From positions 24,291,332 to 24,355,331 of the forward strand of contig NC_091944.1 of NCBI RefSeq assembly GCF_041260155.1: DNA of 64,000 bases, read 5' to 3'. This DNA comes from Ptychodera flava (taxonomy: Eukaryota; Hemichordata; Enteropneusta; Ptychoderidae). The notes under the pieces were generated by a model. The model saw only the letters and a list, made by a program, of their open reading frames with translations, ran no database searches and had not been told where the DNA came from. Below are positions 28,901 through 31,900 of this stretch, in pieces. The first letter of the stretch is position 1; every line of letters starts with the position of its first letter. The position numbers and the translations under genes were made by a program.

Positions 28901-31900
28901 TATGTGGTTCCCATGAGAGCGATCAGAAGGTTCAGGAGGATAATGATGGCTATGACGTTGTACCCGCCGTAAAGTATAGTTCCGAAGAGCTCTGTCGATT
29001 CGTGTTCAGCGCTGACAAACAGTGTTTCAAGGTCGACCAAGCCATAAAGCGACCAGAACAAAGACCCCAGAGCGGAGCCGATGCTGTAAAACAAGATACA
29101 GCGAAAATCAAGCATCAGCCTCACTGATAACACCTTCAAGACGCGCTTCCAAAACCACATGCAATTGTTCCGTGAGAAATACACCAATAGTGCAGAGTTG
29201 TCAAAGTTATAATAGAACTAAAAAAGTAAGGACTTAGTCTTTGACACTTTCTGGTCAATTATTGACAAGCTATTCTAACATAAGCAAGCGATTGTACCTT
29301 TGCATATCAGAAAAGCTGCACATTGTCAATGCTGACATTTCTACGCTGTTAAACAAAAGCTCTGAGTTGGATTCAAAATGTCGCCACCAATACAAATATT
29401 AGTTATCAAATTTGAACACCACCTACAAATAGAATGGTACGTCCCAAACATATAAATAGATAGATAGATAGATAGATAGATAGATAGATAGATAGATAGA
29501 TAGATAGATAGATAGATAGATAGATAGATAGATAGATAGATAGATAGATAGATAGATAGATAGATAGATAGATAGATAGATAGATAGATAGATAGATAGA
29601 TAGATAGATAGATAGATATTACGTCTCGTTTACTTACTCGGCGAATGGCTGGCGTCCGCAGCTGTGACTTGAACCGCCTTCTCTCAAACAGTCCACTTTA
29701 TCAGATGCCGAATAGAGCCAATAGATTTGTGTTAAGCCCAAAGCAAAGGCGAACCAGATCACTATAAACACAAACATGAACTGAATGATGTCGTTCATCA
29801 TCTTACTGACACTGATTTGGAGAGGACCGACATAGTCGTTGATCACCATTATGCGAAGGAATTTGACAATGCTCACTACATTCGCAAGAGCGACGACGCA
29901 GTCCGCTATGAGTGTTGGATCCGAAGAGCTCCATTCGCTCCGTGGGATAGAGTATGCATATCCACTGTATGCGCTGCTGTCGAAGCCATGGCTGCGCGCT
30001 GTGGGCTCACCGACCACGATGTCTGCAGCTTGAGTAGCTGTGCCGGCCGTTGATGATGGCGACACTGTGGGCAGGACAGTGGCTATCAGCTCGGACACGT
30101 TGTTCGCGACTTCTGCCGTGATGTTGTCGACAGACCTGGTCGTTTGAAAGACTGATGTTGTGGCACCAATTGAGACGTAGTCGCTCACAGACGTCGTTTG
30201 CATGCCGCCGACGTCGATTGGTCCTGTGGTACTAGCGTCGGGTTGGTGCTGTTGGCTGTTTCGCTCTTCACGAACCTGTGCAAAAAAAGTTGTGTAGAAA
30301 ATTTTAAGAAGTAAAGATATCGAAATTACGTTATTTTTTATGGCATTTTCACCAAAAGTAACATTGCACTATTTCTAAAAAGTCTCCGTTTTATTGGGGT
30401 TTGAGCTCGACCTTTTGCTCAAACTGGTAACTGAACGTCAATTTTGATATTCTCTGATACCATGGCATATGCACAATCTTTCAATCCGGTCACATACATG
30501 TTATGCCTAGACACATTCTCTGAAAGTTGACCCTATCTACGAAACATGTTCTGAAGATGGTTGAAATGAACGAATTCTGATGTAACCCAAGAATAGATCC
30601 ATTGACAAGGGGCTGCACAACTGTCTAGCAAGCTGCTTCCTTTTTTTCTAACACCTAGTAAGGCGTCTAACATTACTTTGTTTTGCTCCATTGAATAGGT
30701 AAATTGAAAAGGTATTATATGTACTCTTTTTCCTTACTCGGCGTTCGTGTTCTACATCAGACTTGCCATTCGACTCAAACGATTCTGTTGCTGTCATTGT
30801 ACAAAACCACAGACAAATATAGAAACAGACTAGCAACGGGTATTGTTCAAGGCGTGAAGCAGTCACGTAACCCATCCATGTTCGCTTCGCCTCAGGTTAC
30901 TCTCGCCTCTCTTTTCCGGAGAGTGCCGACCATGCATCCTTCGGTAATTTTCGGATTTTCGCCGACTGATAAGCGAAAGTATGTTCGGCAAAGTTTGTGA
31001 TGTTGATATTGTCGTGTGGTGCTGAGCGGAATTGGCGTGCTGGCAAAAACGGGAGTGTTTTGAGCTTCAGGAAAGTGAGTTTTACCGTTCTAAAAATTCC
31101 TCTCATATTTTTTGAATATATAATGAGTGTGTTTGAACCAAATTTGAAAGTCTTTTATCGATACTGTCTGGTTTTACTCAATGGTTTAAGGTCAGTAATA
31201 CCGTCTTTTACACGTTTGTCAAGGAAGGACATGTTTATGAAACCGCTGGCGTGTTATGTTTTGATTTGCGTGAAGCAGTGTTTCTGGCCTGAGAGCTCAC
31301 AAAGTAACTATGGTTGTTACGCGACTGGCAGGACGATGCCATCTCGTCGTATTTTTCGCATAATTTCGAGCAATTATCAACCACAAACAAAGCCTCCAAA
31401 AAGTTTAACACCTTTGAAGCTCATTTTAATATGAAAAGGCAAAAGTCTACCGAGACGACCATGGAACAAAAGGCATGCCGCGTTGCTAATCTGTTTCTAT
31501 ATTTGTCTGTGACAATACATACGACTTTGCTAAGAGTAGTTTGACACTGACGAAGCCTATTCAAATGATTCAGACGGCCGTTAAGTAGAAGGCGCGTTGG
31601 TGACACATACTTGTGAGAACTCATCTTAAAGTTCTAGCAGCAAGATAAATTTTCCACGTCTTACGTTTTTCGAAATCGAAATTTCATTTCTCTCCATAAA
31701 GTCAACACAGGGTTGGCGGCCATCTTGAATTTCAAAATATCGCTAAATGTTGAGTAATTTGCTTTGCTAGACGCGGCGACCCTGATTTTTTCCTGATTTT
31801 GTCACAGGGTGACTGAAAGTTCCATTGAGGAAAGTTGGGGCCAAAGTTAAAAAGTCTTTCCACTTCCAGGCGTATAATACTACCTATCTGAAAGCCAAAA

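Follow-up and report, generated by a model that had tools for sequence, protein, structure and literature searches.

A predicted extracellular S3-S4 insert in two tandem TRPC4/5-like channel genes of Ptychodera flava and its possible role in gating

Does this locus encode TRPC channels in which the extracellular loop between helices S3 and S4 has been greatly enlarged and, if so, what might such a loop do? The window, that is, the whole stretch of 64,000 nucleotides analyzed here, carries two tandem minus-strand genes, TRPC-A and TRPC-B, for both of which the initial annotation had claimed such an enlargement. In the cited parts of the literature, one sugar in the S3-S4 loop of TRPC6 is reported to switch the channel between a tightly regulated and a constitutively active state (PMC7016788, PMC4092855); the TRPC S3-S4 loop may thus be regarded as an extracellular handle on gating. 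A TRPC4/5-like channel with a loop 3-4 times the length of that of TRPC6, present in two diverged paralogues, would offer a natural test of whether loop length and glycan set basal activity across the family; if the loop were a mere spacer, it would illustrate how readily inserted sequence is accommodated at this edge of the voltage-sensor-like bundle.

Two tandem genes with TRPC4/5-like sequences

The gene models are summarized in Table 1. In TRPC-B, all 13 introns are of the GT-AG type, with consistent phases and no internal stop; TRPC-A parallels TRPC-B over 13 exons, with 12 GT-AG introns whose phases are identical to those of its paralogue. Since no counterpart of the last TRPC-B exon was found in positions 1-3740, below TRPC-A exon 13, TRPC-A probably runs past the end of the window, its C-terminal exon probably lying outside or having diverged. 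Over 814 aligned codons, the paralogues differ by a dS of 0.69 at a dN/dS of 0.26. A 39-nt micro-exon is conserved in both genes and, being in phase 0 on both sides, could be skipped without frameshift.

Table 1. Coordinates of features in the window (positions are those of the whole stretch)
Feature	Position	Strand	Remarks
TRPC-B gene	25325..42257	(-)	14 coding exons; 1043 aa
TRPC-B exons 1-7	42257-42089, 39964-39855, 38871-38764, 38368-38189, 37750-37520, 35840-35653, 34491-34301	(-)	
TRPC-B exons 8-14	32388-32249, 30275-29638, 29083-28888, 28628-28446, 27427-27389, 26718-26594, 25958-25325	(-)	
TRPC-B exon 8	32249..32388	(-)	part of S2-S3, and S3; ends ...LRIVAYIM; phase 0 donor; aligned to S3 of solved TRPCs
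TRPC-B S3-S4 insert	29955..30275	(-)	encodes 107 aa at the start of exon 9 (321 nt)
TRPC-B candidate amphipathic helix	30072..30137	(-)	loop residues 47-68; sequons NIT and NVS
TRPC-B exon 9 remainder	29638..29954	(-)	PRSEW loop base, S4, S4-S5 linker, S5, start of pore turret; Ion_trans
TRPC-A gene	3731..20252	(-)	13 coding exons found; 814 aa without stop
TRPC-A exons 1-7	20252-20084, 15487-15378, 13624-13517, 12840-12661, 12183-11953, 11231-11044, 10013-9823	(-)	
TRPC-A exons 8-13	8244-8105, 7256-6673, 6060-5865, 5430-5248, 4091-4053, 3855-3731	(-)	
TRPC-A S3-S4 insert	6990..7256	(-)	encodes 89 aa at the start of exon 9 (267 nt); NMS sequon
S1-S2 loop	34301-34491 (TRPC-B); 9823-10013 (TRPC-A)		
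Pore-turret cysteine pair	29638-29700 (TRPC-B); 6673-6740 (TRPC-A)		
39-nt micro-exon	27389-27427 (TRPC-B); 4053-4091 (TRPC-A)		
Repeat of ~0.6-0.75 kb	30866-31496; 13705-14468		TRPC-B intron 8; TRPC-A intron 2
Open reading frame	52872-53200	(+)	
Microsatellites	~29455-29618, 26293-26516, 28736-28855, 14469-15249, 54503-55150, 61384-61749		ATAG, ATGT, CT and others

TRPC-B matches the Pfam families Ank_2 (3e-9), TRP_2 (1.7e-10) and Ion_trans (1.2e-17), and its hydropathy peaks fall at S1-S6. The TRP box that follows S6 in these channels reads EWKFAR; TRPC-A and TRPC-B have EWKFSR, a single substitution, at the position aligned to EWKFAR of TRPC4a. The LFW motif of the pore helix, described as kept throughout TRPC members in the cited part of PMC6079076, is present in both (...SLFWSLYG... 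in TRPC-B, ...LLFWSLYG... in TRPC-A). Among the solved chains, TRPC-A scored highest against TRPC4a (479 bits) and TRPC5 (464), followed by TRP-gamma (434), TRPC1 (370), TRPC3 (362) and TRPC6 (348); for TRPC-B, a 375-aa segment gave 234.5 bits against TRPC4a. The alignment of TRPC-A to TRPC4a covers residues 6-436 and 526-813, the one large hole in between being the S3-S4 insert. Judged by sequence comparison, TRPC-A and TRPC-B are TRPC4/5-like channels apart from this insert, sharing with TRPC4, TRPC5 and TRP-gamma (the solved chain of which we take to be that of Drosophila) the ankyrin repeats, the six-helix channel, the LFW pore motif and the TRP box, and scoring lower against TRPC3 and TRPC6 than against TRPC4/5. 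The PKD_channel profile found its best stretch in TRPC-B only at residues 682-716, at S6, and the last exon of TRPC-B (634 nt), checked for a C-terminal coiled coil, gave only sub-cutoff Pfam matches such as Laminin_II and Snapin_Pallidin.

Two other extracellular elements were looked at in passing. The S1-S2 loop is somewhat longer than that of TRPC4a (the alignment with TRPC-A shows one gap of 4 residues and one of 10) and is devoid of sequons in both paralogues, whereas the S1-S2 loop of the TRPC3/6 type is described as glycosylated in the cited part of PMC7016788. The cysteine pair of the pore turret is kept in both paralogues with 9 residues between the cysteines; the redox-sensitive pair of TRPC4, C549/C554, has 4 residues between, according to the cited part of PMC6079076.

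Size, coding status and splicing of the insert

The initial annotation had put the loop at about 120 residues in TRPC-B and about 100 in TRPC-A. The 5' end of TRPC-B exon 9 (30275-29916, minus strand), which follows the acceptor ...TTTTTTTGCACAG/GTTCGT, does consist of 120 open codons; because the last ~13 of these 120 residues align to short-loop TRPCs, the true insert amounts to 107 aa in TRPC-B and 89 aa in TRPC-A, and both earlier figures had included the shared loop base. This base, YSIPRSEW in TRPC-B and FSIPLEEW in TRPC-A, is preceded by the insert and runs into S4. The claim of a greatly enlarged, predicted extracellular S3-S4 loop in both paralogues was thereby borne out, at a somewhat reduced size.

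In the same interval, the bounds of which are local alignment ends and hence accurate to a few residues, the solved chains compared with TRPC-B have 0 (TRPC5), 2 (TRPC4a), 6 (TRP-gamma), 7 (TRPC1) or 29 residues (TRPC3 and TRPC6). The original comparison, with the short loop of vertebrate TRPC1/4/5 (0-7 residues as measured here), was too narrow, since TRPC3 and TRPC6 carry a long loop at the very site where TRPC-A and TRPC-B do, albeit one of only ~29 residues. TRPC4, TRPC5 and TRP-gamma, with 0-6 residues versus the 89-107 of TRPC-A/B, have no comparable extracellular flap. The local alignment of TRPC-A to TRPC6 extends about 20 residues into the A loop (TRPC-A residue 459 corresponding to chain position 570). 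In the cited part of PMC5967863, the S3-S4 loop of TRPC3 is characterized as remarkably long and as part of an extracellular domain proposed to sense external stimuli, and the S3 helix is described as unusually long in the TRPC3/6/7 group; with respect to S3 length in TRPC-A/B (an S3 of about twice the normal length marks the TRPC3/6 type), our structural model of exon 9 starts downstream of S3, and its first 40 residues are without helix at a pLDDT of 25-35. For the S3-S4 loop of mouse TRPC4, two disordered residues are mentioned in the cited part of PMC6079076.

Long TRPC S3-S4 loops, including a glycosylated one in TRPC6, are known already. A loop 3-4 times longer on TRPC4/5-like channels did not turn up in any of the TRPC types whose solved chains were measured, nor is one named in the titles or abstract openings of the open-access literature among the matches listed, although it may still be reported elsewhere. 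In polycystins, the TOP domain likewise adds a large extracellular portion to the voltage-sensor-like bundle of a TRP channel, but it is folded and located between S1 and S2, not between S3 and S4 as in TRPC-A/B.

The insert is genuine coding sequence in both paralogues. The two loops align with a local score of 103, whereas none of 2000 shuffles scored above 60. When exon 9 was aligned on the DNA level only, each of four settings placed the same three gaps, of 33, 6 and 15 nt, and 267 of 267 aligned columns of the loop kept the phase. In the 300 nt of intron adjoining exon 9, the paralogues are unalignable, sharing only 9-base words. None of 403 intron stretches of 321 nt was open (overlapping, non-simple stretches from introns that are more AT-rich), and 2.1% (B loop) and 2.5% (A loop) of mononucleotide shuffles stayed open. 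The loop dN/dS is 0.50 (pN/pS bootstrap 95% interval 0.55-0.92, pN being at least equal to pS in 13 of 2000 resamples) versus 0.19 in the rest of exon 9 and 0.24 in the part before the loop; the central block of the loop, which contains the candidate helix, evolves no more slowly than the whole (dN/dS 0.60). Loop GC is 57% in TRPC-B and 53% in TRPC-A compared with 36.5% in the adjoining TRPC-B intron, and loop GC3 resembles that of the rest of each gene. As mismatches in the DNA-only alignment show no third-position excess over position 1 (45, 34 and 44 at codon positions 1, 2 and 3), it is the open frames, the in-frame indels and dN/dS that carry the argument for coding. Given this coding evidence in both genes, the insert is older than the duplication; both copies have since preserved its frame, though the constraint on it is weaker than that on the flanks. 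An origin from a mobile element or repeat was considered and rejected: within the window, the insert matches only its paralogue (blastn, tblastn), apart from one 13-base hit with an E value of 0.7.

These substitution patterns leave room for a translated loop that has lengthened where exon 9 begins, for instance by a shift of the acceptor into the intron, and has drifted since then as a tolerated spacer with no specific job. Faster evolution than in the flanks, central block included, would be in line with such a history, as would the 11-residue length difference confined to one gap and the features described below, namely the lack of a Pfam family, a mostly unstructured, low-confidence model and sequons at chance level. 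Conversely, the loop has remained in frame in both copies since a duplication at dS ~0.7, its dN/dS is below 1, its core is still recognizable, and its GC content relative to that of the adjoining intron argues against recent intron capture. We consider the spacer a serious, if less than even, possibility, almost as likely as the damping of gating discussed further below.

It is conceivable that cryptic sites remove the insert from most transcripts, leaving a short TRPC4-like loop. We scored candidate sites with matrices trained on the two genes' own 25 donors and 25 acceptors, for which real scores range from 5.9 to 13.1 (donors, n=25) and from 5.5 to 12.0 (acceptors, n=25). TRPC-A has an internal donor, ACG/GTGAGA, that scores 8.3 and hence lies within the real range, and some internal acceptors of TRPC-B are as strong as real ones (maximum 7.4). 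However, the phase-matched acceptors for the TRPC-A donor reach only 2.1-3.2, below all 25 real ones, and the exon 8 donor demands phase 0, which no internal acceptor scoring above 2 has in either gene. In TRPC-B, every internal phase-matched pair that would enclose a plausibly sized intron depends on a donor weaker than any real one (2.4 or 4.8; acceptors 3.2-6.3), and the strongest such pair would remove 53-54 residues; a TRPC-B donor of 7.4 has its phase-matched acceptor a mere 12 nt away. Apart from this 12-nt pair, neither gene contains an in-frame internal splice pair with both sites at real strength. With the frame retained in both gene copies as well, we regard predominant splicing-out of the insert as very unlikely.

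Composition and predicted structure of the loop

Ser and Thr together make up 28% of the B loop and 25% of the A loop versus 13% in the rest of each protein, confirming the earlier description of the loop as Ser/Thr-rich. In these calculations, as in those on GC3, sequon placement and amphipathicity, the TRPC-A loop was taken as 88 aa, i.e., one residue short. Pro accounts for 5-6%, cysteine is absent, and the net charge is -7 (B) and -6 (A). Mucin-like domains are dominated by Pro, Thr and Ser, usually in repeated sequence. The TRPC-A/B loops have in common with mucin domains and PTS-rich stalks the Ser/Thr enrichment and the predicted extracellular placement, but neither their Ser+Thr content nor their low Pro content is mucin-like; the B loop contains no tandem array and no repeat family, the A loop a single 12-base repeat in two copies, and nothing longer recurs in either. 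The designation as mucin-like was therefore abandoned.

N-glycosylation sequons are present as had been noted (NIT and NVS in the B loop, NMS in the A loop), and NVS aligns with NMS, so that one sequon is kept in both paralogues; enrichment had to be rejected, since shuffled loops average 1.06 and 1.17 sequons against the two (B) and one (A) observed (P 0.29 and 0.75). TRPC-B has 6 sequons in total and TRPC-A has 3, but only those in the loop are predicted to be extracellular, the other 4 and 2 not. A conserved core of the form N-x-S...TVLP-V-S is recognizable in both loops.

An earlier amphipathicity test had used a stretch picked by eye and was followed by an unbiased scan, in which the top 18-residue hydrophobic moment starts at residue 47 of the B loop and residue 36 of the A loop, the same aligned position. 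Relative to shuffles over the whole loop, this amphipathicity is significant in TRPC-B (P 0.018) but not in TRPC-A (P 0.53). Structure prediction of the loop, as proposed in the initial annotation, was carried out for exon 9 with AlphaFold2 on two sequences: the only predicted loop helix covers residues 46-67, in a model with a mean pLDDT of 46 and block means of 25-46 in the loop, which appears mostly unstructured. A charge-hydropathy plot places both loops narrowly within the ordered region, contrary to simple disorder, an outcome to which we attach little weight. The B loop matches no Pfam family, and an additional transmembrane helix within it was rejected, as the top 19-residue hydropathy is 0.86 compared with at least 1.66 for the listed peaks.

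Possible roles of the loop

Positions 548-578 of the 931 in chain 5yx9 of TRPC6 are the counterpart of the insert, a range that presumably includes N561, assuming that the chain is numbered as native TRPC6 (931 aa). The cited parts of PMC7016788 and PMC4092855 report that the TRPC6 N561Q mutant is constitutively active and that TRPC3 becomes less active in the basal state when a site is added to its corresponding loop. In view of these two precedents, a glycan-bearing flap that favors the closed state is the best-supported mechanism for TRPC-A/B, although we advance it tentatively and short of even confidence. The insert would constitute a flexible, Ser/Thr-rich extracellular flap atop the S1-S4 bundle, with a putative central amphipathic helix bearing the conserved N-glycosylation site. 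Flap and glycan, if the site is occupied, might pack against the outward-facing side of the S1-S4 bundle or against the pore turret and thereby favor the closed state, such that the channel would stay quiet until receptor/phospholipase C input opens it, in analogy to the effect of the N561 glycan in TRPC6.

This analogy crosses subgroups, since TRPC-A/B are nearer to TRPC4/5 than to TRPC6, and where TRPC6 has a functional N-glycan, the TRPC-A/B loops have candidate sequons at chance frequency. Speaking against a damping role are also the very low confidence of the helix model, the insignificant amphipathicity of the A loop, and the evolution of the loop at a faster pace than its flanks, which suits a loosely constrained spacer too. 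Moreover, TRPC6 glycans have been tied to surface expression (PMC7016788, cited part), and the one numbered site of TRPC3 in the cited part of PMC5967863, N404, belongs to the S1-S2 loop, even though one sentence there places a glycosylation site in the S3-S4 loop.

The link to surface expression raises the alternative that loop glycans govern maturation, be it folding, surface delivery or the choice of partner between A and B, rather than gating. The conserved sequon would be compatible with this, and in one study loss of N473 and N561 lowered surface expression of TRPC6; another study covered in the cited part of the same review, however, reports no effect of the glycans on trafficking (PMC7016788). 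We judge a role confined to maturation to be unlikely.

The initial annotation had envisaged a glycosylated extracellular domain on the S1-S4 bundle that could detect matrix, ligand or force; such a brush would relay the stimulus to the bundle. The Ser/Thr content speaks for this idea, as does the position of the insert, which immediately joins S3 to S4 on the predicted extracellular side, and for the smaller extracellular domain of TRPC3 a role in sensing external stimuli has been suggested (PMC5967863, cited part). On the other hand, Pro content and repeats are not those of a mucin, Pfam detected no domain in the loop, and there are no cysteines to stabilize a folded one. Position and composition are what speaks here for force or matrix sensing, which we consider rather improbable.

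Going beyond a damping flap, a TRPC4/5-type lineage might have independently built a large extracellular S3-S4 domain whose conserved, glycosylated amphipathic lid helix docks on the outer face of the channel or on the membrane and provides a receptor-operated channel with a second, extracellular control input; we mention this as a conjecture that is more likely wrong than right by a wide measure.

Further observations concern the remainder of the window. A repeat of about 0.6-0.75 kb occurs in TRPC-B intron 8 and TRPC-A intron 2, its two copies sharing many short frames that are ~75-95% alike, as for a dispersed element in non-homologous introns. A Pfam search of 11 other open reading frames of the window returned nothing at the curated cut-off, and an Rfam search gave nothing of use. 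The plus-strand reading frame at 52872-53200, likewise without Pfam match, shows by eye a signal-peptide-like stretch, MKPAGLHVLFLLMILLTADMGTAEH, near its start and may represent exon 1 of a gene for a secreted or membrane protein. Finally, very long microsatellites are found in both introns and intergenic regions, among them an ATAG array that starts about 20 nt past the TRPC-B exon 9 donor in gene orientation.
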